A stretch of 21,205 nt of DNA from a virus. The first letter of the stretch is position 1. Each line of letters starts with the position of its first letter. The notes under the pieces were generated by a model. It saw nothing but the letters and a program-made list of their open reading frames with translations. It made no database searches and was not told the origin of the DNA. This document shows, piece after piece, positions 1,638-17,725 of this stretch. The stretch is taken from positions 1 through 21,205 of IMG/VR virus record IMGVR_UViG_3300017760_000132, one strand, 5' to 3'. The translations under genes were made by a program, and so were the position numbers.

Positions 1638-3062
1638 ATGTGTAAATGTGGATGTAATAGCTGTGAAACTAAAAGTACTGCGTTAGTACTCAAAGAAAGC
1701 AAATTTGTGCATACTCCTATATCGGAGGGGTTAAAATACCATATAGACAATAAAATACCGTTAAGCGAAAATATTTACCGCATTGGGTCTAAAGAATATA
1801 TGAAGTTATATAGTGAAGCTAGAGCATTATATTCTCGTAATAAATTAGATGTAAGTGAAGATGATAAATATTTCTTAACAGAAACTCATGTTGGTGATTT
1901 TGGTATGTTTGAAGGTAAAAGAGTACCATTAGATATTCCTATGTTAGAAGAAAATATTGACACAGGTGATTTTTTAAATAAAAATAGAGATCAAATTGAA
2001 TTAGATTTTGGTCCTAGAACATTTAGAATGTTACAAATCCAATTAATGAAAGATGATGAATCTTTTGTTAGAGATTGGTTAGTAGCAAATGGTTATATAG
2101 AAGAAGAAAAATTACCATTTGAGGAAAATCTTAAAAAAATAATAAAAGAAAAACTTTGTAAAAAAGGTGAAGCTTATCGTAAACGAAGAATGGCAGCAGG
2201 TGAAAAATCATCAGCTTATTTATCAGGACGTGCTGTTAAAGTTTGTAAGGGTCAAATGAGTGGTAAGAAAAAGAAAAAAGCAAATGAAAATACAGCTCCT
2301 AATCATGATGGGAAAGCTGCACCTTATGGGTCAGGATATAAAGTATTAAATATAGATGAAATAGCTGAGTCATTAAGAGATTGGTTTAAAAAAGAAAATT
2401 GGGTAAGAATTAATACATCAGGTAATATATCTGGTGATTGTGGTACAATGAAAAAAGGTAAAGCTACTACAAGATGTTTACCTAAGAAAAAAGCTCAATC
2501 TTTAACTAAAGCAGAACGTAAAGCTACTGTAGCTAAAAAAGTAAGAGGTAGTAAAAAAGGTAAACAATTTGTTTCAGTAAAAGAAAATTTTGAAATGGGT
2601 GATAGAGTAGAACTTACACCTGATTACGCAGAAACACCAGGTGAAGTATTTACAATAACACAAACATCAGGTAATAAGTATTTTATTGCTGATGAAGATG
2701 GTAGAGGATGGTATGCCTACGCAGATCAATTAGTAATGGCAGATGATGAATATGTAAATGAAGCTAAAAAGAAAAAGAAAAAAGAAAAAAAAGATCCACC
2801 TATTGGAAAACCAAAACGAGGTGGTTCTAAAGCATATTATGTTTATGTAAGGGATCCTAAAACTAAAAAAGTAAAAAAAGTATCATTTGGTTCAGGTGGT
2901 TTAAGAGCTAAAATTAGAAATCCAAAAGCACGTAAGGCATTTGCTGCTAGACATAATTGTAAAAACAAAAAAGATAGAACTAAAGCAGGATATTGGTCTT
3001 GTAATTTACCTAGATATGCACCTCAATTAGGATTAGGTGCTAAAATGAATACATTTTGGTAA
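1638..3062 (+). CDS. Modular lysine-rich protein with Cys-rich N-terminus and DUF5872-like segment
   Basis: This 474-residue protein is built of recognisable blocks. (a) Residues 2-9 form a cysteine cluster (CKCGCNSC). (b) Residues 29-105 (SEGLKYHIDNKIPLSENIYR onward) are a block I recall in other marine phage proteins. (c) Residues 172-212 are a basic block with paired cysteines (C174, C203). (d) Residues 245-305 (RDWFKKENWVRINTSG, C268, C280, AQSLTKAERKAT) resemble DUF5872. (e) Residues 318-370 look like a small SH3-like barrel. (f) Residues 390-474 hold YYVYVRDPKTKKVKKVSFG and a RHNCKNK...KAGYWSC motif. Lysine-rich linkers join the blocks. Several (L/I)-x-E sites fall at or near junctions (ISE|G at 30, IAE|S at 244). 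Inference: a DNA-associated head protein, possibly cut by the prohead protease. Function unknown. The stop overlaps the next ATG (TAATG). Confidence 0.7.
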   Translation: MCKCGCNSCETKSTALVLKESKFVHTPISEGLKYHIDNKIPLSENIYRIGSKEYMKLYSEARALYSRNKLDVSEDDKYFLTETHVGDFGMFEGKRVPLDIPMLEENIDTGDFLNKNRDQIELDFGPRTFRMLQIQLMKDDESFVRDWLVANGYIEEEKLPFEENLKKIIKEKLCKKGEAYRKRRMAAGEKSSAYLSGRAVKVCKGQMSGKKKKKANENTAPNHDGKAAPYGSGYKVLNIDEIAESLRDWFKKENWVRINTSGNISGDCGTMKKGKATTRCLPKKKAQSLTKAERKATVAKKVRGSKKGKQFVSVKENFEMGDRVELTPDYAETPGEVFTITQTSGNKYFIADEDGRGWYAYADQLVMADDEYVNEAKKKKKKEKKDPPIGKPKRGGSKAYYVYVRDPKTKKVKKVSFGSGGLRAKIRNPKARKAFAARHNCKNKKDRTKAGYWSCNLPRYAPQLGLGAKMNTFW

Positions 3063-3106
3063 TGGATAACTTTGATTTAAAAAAATATCTTAAAGAAGCT
3101 AAAGAA
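3062..3106 (+). repeat. Leader-peptide DNA cassette, copy 2 (diverged)
   Basis: Bases 1-27 of this gene differ from copy 1 at two positions. After the KKY codons the DNA diverges, though the peptide still ends L-x-E followed by a small residue. Confidence 0.6.
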
Positions 3107-3352
3107 GAAAATAATAGAGTACCTAGTGCTGAACTTATTTTACCTAGAGGTAAAGAAGTTGTACTACAGGCCGAATCTCAAGATTATAAAAGAGGATTAC
3201 TAGTAGAATTACTAGACAATGGTGGTTATAGAATAAAATATTGGTATGGAGATAATGTTAAAGTATACCCTGCTGAAGTTAAAGTAGATGGAGAACCAAT
3301 TAAAAAAGATGCTAAAGTAGTAGATATATTATTCCATCCAGAATTAAAATAA
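3062..3352 (+). CDS. Small putative capsid-targeted protein with beta-rich C-terminal domain
   Basis: This 96-residue protein begins MDNFDLKKYLKEAKEE. It is a third version of the shared leader, ending L-K-E before A, which again fits the gp21-type cleavage rule. An in-frame TTG six bases upstream is possible, but the ATG at 3062 restores the family N-terminus and overlaps the previous stop as TAATG, so it is preferred. After the leader, residues 20-96 form a compact beta-rich domain (YRIKYWYGDNVKVYPAEV, VDILFHPEL at the end). I recall similar sequences as unknown proteins in marine T4-like phages. No catalytic motif is seen. The stop overlaps the next start, so it is translationally coupled on both sides. 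Confidence 0.65.
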   Translation: MDNFDLKKYLKEAKEENNRVPSAELILPRGKEVVLQAESQDYKRGLLVELLDNGGYRIKYWYGDNVKVYPAEVKVDGEPIKKDAKVVDILFHPELK

Positions 3353-3600
3353 TGAAACCTTATTTTCATAAAAATAATATAAGAGAATTTTCTAAAGATG
3401 TTAATGAGATGGATCTTGTTTGGCATCAAGATAAAGAAGATAGAAAAATAGAAGTATTAGAAGGTAAAGGATGGAAATTTCAAAAAGATAATGAATTACC
3501 TTTGGAACTTAAAAAAGGAGATCGTATATTTATAGCCGAAGGAGAAATACACCGTGTAATTAAAGGAACAACAAATTTAAAAATAAAAATAAATGGATAA
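3352..3600 (+). CDS. Small cupin-like protein
   Basis: This 82-residue protein has the core MDLVWHQDKEDRKIEVLEG, then WKFQKDNELPLELKKGDRIF and IAEGEIHRVIKGT. Paired beta strands, a glycine turn, an early histidine (VWHQD) and a late one (EIHRVI) suggest a single minimal cupin barrel. Related small proteins are, from memory, common in T4-like cyanophages and other marine phages, where their role is unknown. It has no capsid leader, unlike its neighbours. The ATG overlaps the previous stop (TAATG). Its end overlaps the next start by eight bases, so it is embedded in the internal-protein cluster. Metal binding is not established, because the usual multi-histidine cupin set is incomplete. Confidence 0.6.
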   Translation: MKPYFHKNNIREFSKDVNEMDLVWHQDKEDRKIEVLEGKGWKFQKDNELPLELKKGDRIFIAEGEIHRVIKGTTNLKIKING

Positions 3601-3640
3601 TTTTAATTTAAAAAAATATTTAGCTGAAGGTAAGCTGTTA
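3593..3640 (+). repeat. Leader-peptide DNA cassette, copy 3
   Basis: Forty of the first 42 bases are identical to bases 1-42 of the window. Identity stops soon after the L-A-E-G-K codons. Confidence 0.75.
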
Positions 3641-4123
3641 AAAGAAGAACTAAGAGACGTTGAAGACGTATTAAAAAAAGCTGGATTTAGATTTGATGAT
3701 GGTATTTTAGGAGGTGTAGGTTCAGGTGGAGCTGGATATTATGATAACGCAAATGATTTAATATATGGTTTTAACCAAAAAGGCCCTTGGAACGAAGAAG
3801 AATTTAATAAATTTTATGATAATTTTAGCTTTAATTCTAATGTATACGAAAAAGAATTTGCTGAAGAAAATGATGATCCTTATGACTACGATATGGTAGC
3901 TCAAATGCTCAAACCTGGTATCTATTCTATTGGAGATGAGGGGTATGTAGAAATCCGTAGTAATGGCGATGTTGAAATTTATGCTATCCCACAATTATCT
4001 GATGATGAAGGAAGAGTATTCCTTCCTGCATTTAAAATGGATGCTAGTGGAAGAGCAATCCCTCTATTTAGTAAAGACGAAATGAGGAAAATGCTAAAAG
4101 ATGATATGATGTATATCTTATAA
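3593..4123 (+). CDS. Putative capsid-targeted internal protein
   Basis: This 176-residue acidic protein starts MDNFNLKKYLAEGKLLKEEL, almost identical to the gene at base 1 and with the same L-A-E|G site. The ATG lies inside the end of the previous gene (eight-base overlap), and the shared N-terminus supports it. The rest is unrelated to the protein at base 1. There is a glycine-rich turn (GGVGSGGAGYYDN, residues 40-53), an acidic mid region, and beta-rich segments (PGIYSIGDEGYVEI; DVEIYAIPQL) before a helical end with several methionines. Function not recognised. Inference from the leader and context: a head-internal protein matured by the prohead protease. Its C-terminal domain would then be the functional cargo. 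Confidence 0.65.
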   Translation: MDNFNLKKYLAEGKLLKEELRDVEDVLKKAGFRFDDGILGGVGSGGAGYYDNANDLIYGFNQKGPWNEEEFNKFYDNFSFNSNVYEKEFAEENDDPYDYDMVAQMLKPGIYSIGDEGYVEIRSNGDVEIYAIPQLSDDEGRVFLPAFKMDASGRAIPLFSKDEMRKMLKDDMMYIL

Positions 4124-4134
4124 AAATAAATCAA

Positions 4135-4443
4135 ATGGGTAATTTTAACATACATTCTTTCTATAAAAAACAATATTTAGCTGAGGCGTTAGTTAATGAC
4201 GTAGATAAAATACAAATATCATATACAGACCCAGGATTTCGTTTTTATGGAATGTATCTTACTAAAGATGGTAAAAGAGATAAAATTAGTTTTAATAAAG
4301 AAGCAACAGAATATCTTAATGATTTAGGTATTGATATACAAATGCCAAGAATGTATGATGAGGATATTTTAGATAAGATAGTAGATGAATTAAAAAAATT
4401 AGGAATAGAAGCATCTCATGATGCTGCAATGGATACAACTTAA
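4135..4443 (+). CDS. Small putative capsid-targeted protein
   Basis: This 102-residue protein begins MGNFNIHSFYKKQYLAEALV. It is a longer variant of the leader, with -KKQYLAE|AL in place of -KKYLAE|GK. The remainder has a short beta region (GFRFYGMYLTKDGKRDKISF) and a helical C-terminal part (DEDILDKIVDELKKLGIEASHDAAMD). I recall similar small proteins with this ending in marine T4-like phages, without known function. The start lies eleven bases after the previous stop, in an A-rich stretch with no Shine-Dalgarno motif. The position at the end of the leader-bearing cluster supports a head-internal role, but that is inference. Confidence 0.6.
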   Translation: MGNFNIHSFYKKQYLAEALVNDVDKIQISYTDPGFRFYGMYLTKDGKRDKISFNKEATEYLNDLGIDIQMPRMYDEDILDKIVDELKKLGIEASHDAAMDTT

Positions 4444-4465: not shown

Positions 4466-4528
4466 ATGTGTAATTGTCAAGAATGTAAATGTGGAACAAG
4501 TTGCAAATGCAATTGTTGCAACTGTTAA
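4466..4528 (+). CDS. Cysteine-rich 20-residue protein, metallothionein-like
   Basis: A short open frame starts at the ATG at 4466, in the same AATT-ATG context as the genes at 6075, 6390 and 20072, and ends at TAA 4526-4528. It encodes 20 residues with cysteines at 2, 4, 7, 9, 13, 15, 17, 18 and 20. Three C-x-C pairs and a C-C-x-C ending give the spacing of a minimal metal-thiolate cluster. There are no aromatic residues, and two lysines are interspersed, both also metallothionein traits. It is followed by a terminator and preceded by the head-protein cluster, so it would be the last gene of that unit. Expression is unproven and the frame is short. The nine cysteines in 20 codons make chance unlikely. 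Metal or redox buffering is inference. Confidence 0.55.
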   Translation: MCNCQECKCGTSCKCNCCNC

Positions 4529-4579
4529 TAACTTATAGCTCGATTCATAGCCGAGTGTTTTGTAAAATTTAAAGAGATC

Positions 4580-4613
4580 TGTGGCCTCCAATTTGGAGGT
4601 CACATTTTTTTTT
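4580..4613 (+). terminator. Rho-independent terminator
   Basis: GTGGCCTCC and GGAGGTCAC flank a five-base loop (AATTT), with a flanking T-A pair and one G-U pair, giving a stem of about ten pairs. A run of nine T follows at 4605-4613. It closes the cluster of small head-type genes. Confidence 0.85.
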
Positions 4614-4625
4614 CGTATATTAATA

Positions 4626-4643: not shown

Positions 4644-6071
4644 ATGAATAAAGATGTAGTAATTGTAGGAGCAGGGGTAGCAGGTATAAATGCTGCTACT
4701 AAATTAGTAGATAATAATTATCAAGGTAAAATTACCATTATTGATATGGGTAAAGATCCATATTTAAGACCTTACGAGGAGGTAATGACAGGGTTTTTAG
4801 GTGCAGGTGGTTGGTCAGATGGTAAATTAACCTATTCAACTCAAATTGGTGGACAATTATCTAAATATGTAGGTGAAGAAAAAGCAATGGAATTAATGAA
4901 ACAAGTTGTTGATAATTTTAGTAGATTCCACCCACACCCAGAACAAATAATACTATCATCTCCTCAGGAAGAACCAGATTTCATTAAACCATATTTTGGT
5001 TTAAGATTATTCCCTGTATGGCATATTGGTACTGATTATTTACATGAAATAGGTAAAAGTTGGTATGACTATTTAGTATCTAAAGGTGTAAAATTTAAAT
5101 GGGAAACTAAAGTAACAGATATTAATTTTCATAAACAAGTAGTATTTTGTGATAAAGATCATCATCATTCTTATGATACACTTATATTTGGTGTGGGCAA
5201 ATCAGGAATTGATTTTACTTCAAATATAATGAAACAATATAATTTACCAACTGAAGAAAAACCAGCTCAAGTAGGTGTTAGGTTTGAAGCACCACAAAAA
5301 CATTTTCAAAAATTAATTGATATAGCATATGATTTTAAATTATATAGAAAAGATGATAAAGTTAGTTTAAGATCGTTTTGTACTAATAATAATGCAGCTT
5401 ATGTAGCAGTTGAAGAAACATATGGTAATCATAGTTACAATGGACATGCTAAAAAAGATGAGGCATTTAGAAATGATATGACTAATTTTGGTATATTAAT
5501 GGAGATTAAAGGTATTAAAGAGCCATTTAAATGGGCAAGAGAATTAGTAAATAAAGTACAAGAAAATAGTACAGGTTTATTTTATAGTCCAACAAGAGAA
5601 CCATCTACAACATCAGAAGGTATAGATGTATCAGCTACTAAAATTGACAACTTAGATGTAGTTAAAGATGCATTTCAAGGATATTATAGTTACATAAAAG
5701 ACTTTATTAATGATATGAAAAAAGTATTCCCAACATTAAAAGATGATTGGGGAATATATATACCGGAGGTTAAATATTTAGCTCCAGAGCCATTAGTAAA
5801 TTATGAAGATTTATCATTAACTAAATATCCAAATGTACATTTTGTAGGTGATGCTTTAAGTGCAAGAGGTATATCAGTTTCAGGAGCTCATGGTACATTA
5901 GTAGCAGAGCAATTATTATCAATGAGTGATGCTATAAATGAGTTTTTAGAACATGCAGATAAACAAGGACCATGGTCTGAAGAAGATGATAAAATATATA
6001 CTATAGGAGGTTTAACCAATGACAAAGAAAGATCATTTATAAAATTTCAAAATCAAATAAATAAAAAATAA
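4644..6071 (+). CDS. FAD-dependent oxidoreductase (COG2509-like)
   Basis: This 475-residue protein has an N-terminal Rossmann fold. VVIVGAGVAGINAA (residues 5-18) carries G-x-G-x-x-G at 9-14, and D34 after beta-2 is placed to bind the ribose. A second FAD contact is near the C-terminus (VHFVGDALSARGISVSGAHG, about 398-417). Internal features recall the uncharacterised FAD-dependent dehydrogenases of COG2509: a GGWSDGKL motif near residue 56, VGVRFEAP, an RSFC segment, and NGHAKKDEAFRNDMTNFGIL. The substrate is not known. It is first in a unit that begins after a terminator, so it is likely separately promoted. A 475-residue oxidoreductase is unusual in a T4-like genome and is probably an auxiliary metabolic gene of host origin. 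FAD binding is confident, the exact family less so. Confidence 0.8.
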   Translation: MNKDVVIVGAGVAGINAATKLVDNNYQGKITIIDMGKDPYLRPYEEVMTGFLGAGGWSDGKLTYSTQIGGQLSKYVGEEKAMELMKQVVDNFSRFHPHPEQIILSSPQEEPDFIKPYFGLRLFPVWHIGTDYLHEIGKSWYDYLVSKGVKFKWETKVTDINFHKQVVFCDKDHHHSYDTLIFGVGKSGIDFTSNIMKQYNLPTEEKPAQVGVRFEAPQKHFQKLIDIAYDFKLYRKDDKVSLRSFCTNNNAAYVAVEETYGNHSYNGHAKKDEAFRNDMTNFGILMEIKGIKEPFKWARELVNKVQENSTGLFYSPTREPSTTSEGIDVSATKIDNLDVVKDAFQGYYSYIKDFINDMKKVFPTLKDDWGIYIPEVKYLAPEPLVNYEDLSLTKYPNVHFVGDALSARGISVSGAHGTLVAEQLLSMSDAINEFLEHADKQGPWSEEDDKIYTIGGLTNDKERSFIKFQNQINKK

Positions 6072-17691: not shown

Positions 17692-17725
17692 GTTATTTGG
17701 TTACCTAGTAGATACTTAGTATATT

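Follow-up and report, generated by a model that had tools for sequence, protein, structure and literature searches.

Small fungal copper metallothioneins, such as that of Neurospora, are about 25 amino acids long and contain seven cysteines. The mammalian metallothionein beta-domain, as described in PMC10243857, holds a Zn3Cys9 cluster. Regulatory polycysteine small open reading frames (sORFs) have been described in mycobacteria (Canestrari et al. 2020, PMC8764745, as cited in PMC9094748), and the structured manA and wcaG RNA motifs belong to marine T4-like cyanophages (PMC2864571). Our literature search, which was limited in scope, found no phage metallothionein. Here we analyzed a window of 21,205 nucleotides, the whole of the viral DNA stretch under study, in which an initial annotation made from the letters alone had pointed to a 20-residue frame with nine cysteines as a possible minimal phage metallothionein.

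The nine-cysteine sORF and its genomic context

The sORF lies on the forward strand at 4466-4528 and encodes the peptide MCNCQECKCGTSCKCNCCNC (20 amino acids plus stop). Translation of the frame confirmed the composition and spacing that had been reported for it: nine of the 20 residues are cysteine, arranged as C-N-C, C-K-C and C-K-C-N-C-C-N-C, and none is aromatic. The 20 nt upstream of the ATG are 65% A without a Shine-Dalgarno sequence, and starts near the sORF in the window are likewise 30-75% A with a Shine-Dalgarno sequence almost never present, in agreement with the annotated similarity of its start context to that of neighbouring genes. The gene upstream (4135-4443, forward strand) encodes a 102-aa protein with no assigned function, and ends 15-33 nt before the sORF in close relatives.

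Terminase, portal, protease and gp23-like capsid genes mark the window as a fragment of a T4-like phage genome. Since its portal is 61% identical to that of Flavobacterium phage vB_FspM_immuto, the host is probably a bacteroidote. Otherwise unlike proteins encoded at 1-537, 3056-3352 and 3593-4123 share the N-terminal motif MDNFDLKKYLAEGK, which was found at 48 loci and which by eye resembles the T4-type capsid-targeting leader that is cleaved by a gp21-like protease, the T4 internal proteins being the source for this comparison (PMC3012670). The presence of such leaders on nearby genes suggests that the peptide would be made among likely head or internal-protein genes; the peptide itself carries no leader of this type. 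In the same region, a 474-aa protein (1638-3062) starts with MCKCGCNSCETK, and its M-C-x-C-G-C-x-x-C start, which may bind a metal ion, is conserved in relatives (20 N-terminal variants).

The sORF is single-copy in all seven large contigs that carry it. It is found upstream of a FAD-oxidoreductase gene in 40 contigs, and elsewhere it sits in several contexts between T4-like virion genes, with gaps of ~20 nt upstream and ~11 nt downstream, the capsid- and sheath-like neighbours having been named by eye. Many relatives of the window phage are without the exact nine-cysteine pattern, indicating that the peptide is not essential. In named phages, no homologue was recovered either by tblastn with a consensus of 21 aa (a weak test, given the short query) or by blastn with the region, and the sORF was not found in phages immuto and Mel-JY01. 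A host origin was considered and rejected, since the family was absent from 395 Bacteroidota genomes, where the only matches were low-complexity or repeat sequences.

Conservation of the nine-cysteine family

A first pattern scan of IMG/VR recovered the same 20-codon frame in ten contigs, and a scan on cysteine spacing alone returned at least 120 rows, from which simple cysteine-codon repeats, a large share, were removed. With all loci pooled, the family, carried by many marine T4-like phages that probably infect Bacteroidota, comprises at least 80 distinct coding sequences on IMG/VR contigs and at least 75 distinct peptides of 20-23 amino acids, a set partly retrieved by the cysteine pattern itself. 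Across these peptides the spacing C-x-C-x2-C-x-C-x3-C-x-C-x-C-C-x-C is invariant, the stop codon directly follows the ninth cysteine in all, and cysteine makes up 39-45% of residues; Phe, Tyr and Trp do not occur, and His occurs in one. Length differs only by whole codons 5' of the first cysteine, together with the whole-codon deletion of one residue in a further member that keeps all nine cysteines (L018).

A subset of 27 distinct coding sequences is free of this retrieval bias, as it comes from loci brought in via the downstream RNA element or the oxidoreductase gene, with counting still requiring the exact spacing. All 27 sequences have nine of nine cysteines, with no replacement among 243 cysteine codons, and TGT and TGC are both present in all nine cysteine columns. 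Heterozygosity at codon positions one, two and three is 0, 0 and 0.36 for the cysteine codons, compared to 0.37, 0.29 and 0.38 for the other codons. Constraint at the non-cysteine codons is weaker than at the cysteines (dN/dS about 0.56 among the matches listed); these residues vary, with G9, S11 and N or D at positions 2 and 18 fairly conserved. A tolerant search for frames with six to eight of the nine cysteines found none that was family-like in the RNA-element and oxidoreductase loci, the few matches being low-complexity or unrelated.

By these sequence comparisons, the recurrence of nine cysteines with an immediate stop is far beyond chance. The invariant cysteines, the mixture of TGT and TGC, the lack of frames with six to eight cysteines and the stop after the ninth cysteine together indicate that selection on the nine cysteines acts at the level of the peptide. 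The initial annotation had proposed looking for the same small frame in related phages, and it is present there, with 9/9 cysteines, in loci that were retrieved independently of the peptide; loss of conservation, frameshifts and a lack of third-position bias, which it named as grounds for abandoning the idea, were looked for and did not emerge. Its interpretation is supported in part: the view of the frame as a real, overlooked microprotein of metallothionein-like sequence has strong support in the conservation among relatives, the nine invariant cysteines, the third-position bias and the absence of aromatic residues, and the metal binding, redox buffering and place in the virion that it put forward are candidate properties.

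The RNA element downstream of the sORF

A structured RNA element (4538-4613, forward strand) begins ten nt 3' of the sORF stop codon with hairpin P1, in which 4538-4542 pair with 4552-4556 around the loop AUUCAUAGC (4543-4551). The loop sequence UCAUAG (4545-4550) forms the 5' strand of a putative pseudoknot, P2, the 3' strand of which, CUGUGG (4579-4584), lies within the 5' arm of a terminator-like hairpin (4580-4604) followed by a run of nine T (4605-4613). The terminator annotated after the sORF therefore exists as a hairpin with nine T (4580-4613), although it belongs to a separate, pseudoknotted element rather than to the sORF. The element occurs in well over 100 phage contigs (loci L018-L135, L138-L215, L245-L261 and L369-L383). 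No Rfam 15 family matches it at the gathering score, and of its 29 matches in a genome collection, 28 were without the conserved stem context and are attributed to chance, while one, on a metagenome-assembled contig (L226), is real.

P1 of at least 5 bp can be formed in 157 of 162 distinct elements, compared to about 30 with shuffled partners, and several pair types occur at four of its positions. For P2, scans for two-sided changes, which exclude one-sided changes by design, found 17 contigs changed at the G8-C1' pair, all compensatory (16 U-A and one A-U) and all with P1, and 12 true elements changed at C4-G5', all to U-A. Inspection of 73 independently fetched oxidoreductase loci revealed one compensatory change (L185), one compatible one-sided change (L213) and no broken pairs. 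Since the sequences are related, the 29 cases reflect a minimum of two to three events rather than 29 separate ones, and compensatory changes at two of its pairs support the P2 pseudoknot. Changes at a further pair, A7-U2', were not accepted, as the scan matches lacked the stem and reflect chance. In 144 of 157 elements the CUGUGG strand is part of this 5' arm, and P2 and the terminator-like hairpin would be mutually exclusive because they have that strand in common. A T5 run is present in 107 of the 157 elements, leaving about a third of the hairpins without a T run.

The element is found ~100 nt before the start of the oxidoreductase gene, or before a small gene that precedes it, while the genes upstream vary. 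It lies before the oxidoreductase gene in 53 of the 73 loci, and several of the others are truncated or have an intervening gene. The RNA element is thus linked to the oxidoreductase gene or operon, not to the peptide. In the window this gene (4644-6071, forward strand) encodes a 475-aa FAD-dependent oxidoreductase with a Rossmann FAD motif, the predicted fold of which (pLDDT 78) is nearest to that of VP0956 (PDB 3nlc, TM 0.66).

Between the hairpin and the oxidoreductase gene lies a promoter-like site on the forward strand, TTTGGA (4592-4597) N18 TATATT (4616-4621), identified by strong enrichment of its exact spacing; its -35 box is inside the terminator-like hairpin and overlaps the 3' arm. 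The same motif, with sharply fixed spacing, is present at 17696-17725 and in loci L018-L135. We do not count as a promoter a further match upstream of the sORF (3501-3530), since the sequence there is a conserved coding motif. Given the promoter-like site between hairpin and gene and the third of hairpins without a T run, the RNA element may be either an antitermination switch for read-through or a 3'-end element of upstream transcripts.

Relationship of the sORF to the RNA element

The position of the sORF raises the question of whether it acts as a cysteine-codon leader, in which stalling at scarce Cys-tRNA would refold the RNA element and control the oxidoreductase. Its stop codon lies 10-19 nt before P1 in the window and in about 30 relatives, upstream of the oxidoreductase gene, and there is precedent in the mycobacterial polycysteine sORFs, which control their own operons. 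The slot before the RNA element is moreover often occupied in other phages by a second cysteine-rich sORF family of ~28 aa (MKEKICKxICKITFNKVCLGWCxxKCCK; L038, L081, L096, L144, L146, L071, L143 and L027). However, most RNA-element loci have no cysteine-rich sORF, the sORF occurs at one locus (L207) where the element is missing, and in the large contigs the two assort independently, being 78 kb apart in G004, while only the sORF is present in G003, G005 and G006. The sORF also lies 11 nt before unrelated genes, its several unrelated downstream genes offering no single conserved target operon, and the spacing of the cysteine codons is conserved along with several non-cysteine residues, neither of which would be needed for stalling alone. 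Gene context and co-occurrence therefore make the attenuator an improbable reading, and the independent assortment (both, sORF only or element only) suggests that the sORF and the RNA element are neighbours rather than one device. At the level of sequence, the analysis establishes a genuine conserved phage gene, its invariant cysteine pattern, selection on the peptide and independence from the RNA element.

Two other explanations bear on what is being conserved. An sORF that is not translated, its conservation reflecting an RNA or DNA element, would fit its position next to a strongly structured RNA; but the first and second positions of the cysteine codons never vary while the third does, length changes are by whole codons, and copies unlinked to the RNA element keep the same peptide, so that this explanation is ruled out by the codon-position pattern for practical purposes and we give it hardly any weight. 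A peptide that acts on a specific partner, such as a virion protein or host enzyme, as a small factor with redox, Fe-S or zinc-finger-like properties, instead of as a bulk metal buffer, would fit the location of the sORF among head genes, beside the protein family with the conserved four-cysteine N-terminus, and the fair conservation of G9, S11 and N or D at positions 2 and 18. Against this, nine closely packed cysteines with C-x-C and C-C arrangements exceed a single zinc site, and charge varies freely at the non-cysteine positions; we consider such a factor unlikely, if less so than the attenuator.

Discussion

The reading we favour, with some confidence, is that the sORF encodes a one-cluster metallothionein-like peptide whose nine thiolates would likely surround soft metal ions, serving as a Zn or Cu buffer. 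The peptide shares sequence features of the metallothionein class, namely low mass, very high cysteine content, conserved C-x-C and C-C arrangements and no aromatic residues, and its variable residues are hydrophilic. An odd number of cysteines in a presumably cytoplasmic peptide would be ill suited to a pure disulfide fold.

We infer that this minimal, single-copy gene, with its A-rich start lacking a Shine-Dalgarno sequence, would be translated as the last small cistron in a run of late, head-associated genes. By analogy with the Zn3Cys9 cluster of the mammalian beta-domain, its nine thiolates would wrap one soft-metal cluster of three divalent ions or, alternatively, Cu(I), and the phage may benefit from a peptide that buffers or sequesters Zn or Cu inside the infected cell. 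A more far-reaching picture can be offered only tentatively, and we think it rather less likely to hold in full: the peptides would form the smallest known one-cluster metallothionein-like family, confined to T4-like phages that infect Bacteroidota and produced alongside the head proteins so as to seize host Zn or Cu, and in some lineages they would lie beside an undescribed pseudoknot switch governing a phage flavoenzyme operon.

The family has escaped notice because its genes are shorter than gene callers accept. If the peptides bind metal, they would be a phage metallothionein-like family among the smallest gene-encoded metal-cluster proteins, and phage control of host metal pools would become directly testable. 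Separately, the RNA element is a new regulatory RNA candidate, supported by covariation and common in phage contigs.

Sequence searches place the peptide outside the described families. There was no significant metallothionein match in Pfam, the best being Metallothio_2 (E 0.57; score 11.6 bits, cutoff 23; two of 41 members); NCBIfam and PHROGs gave no match, and neither Pfam nor PHROGs has a family for the peptide. Among sequences of solved structures in the PDB, the only match was wheat Ec (2kak), which was not significant (E 6.2). Since this test of sequence-family homology was negative, the best reading is that the peptide probably works like a metallothionein, by its composition and a size suited to one cluster, and is not a member of a known family. 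To our knowledge, the one-cluster domains described so far are longer than twenty residues for nine thiolates, which, like the lack of a family match, counts against the metallothionein-like reading.

These comparisons can be extended to individual systems. The RNA element, like the manA and wcaG motifs, is a structured RNA of marine T4-like phages near metabolic genes, but differs from them in structure and gene association. The mycobacterial polycysteine sORFs are similarly short and cysteine-rich, and in some phages the sORF likewise precedes a regulated-looking operon, whereas here the cysteine spacing is fixed, the downstream operon is not, and copies occur far from the attenuator-like element. 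The plant type 4 (Ec, 2kak) and type 2 (Metallothio_2) metallothioneins share C-x-C-G-x-x-C-x-C stretches that align with the peptide at chance level; they are two-domain eukaryotic proteins, and the scores are far below thresholds. Small fungal copper metallothioneins resemble the peptide in one-cluster size, very high cysteine content and C-x-C repeats, whereas the phage peptide has nine cysteines in 20 amino acids, is phage-borne and shows no sequence relationship to them. The vertebrate beta-domain likewise has nine cysteines, C-x-C arrangements, no aromatic residues and Lys, Ser, Thr, Gly or Asx between the cysteines; in contrast, and with no demonstrable homology to it, the phage peptide is free-standing, 20-23 amino acids long, and has a different cysteine spacing that includes a C-C pair.
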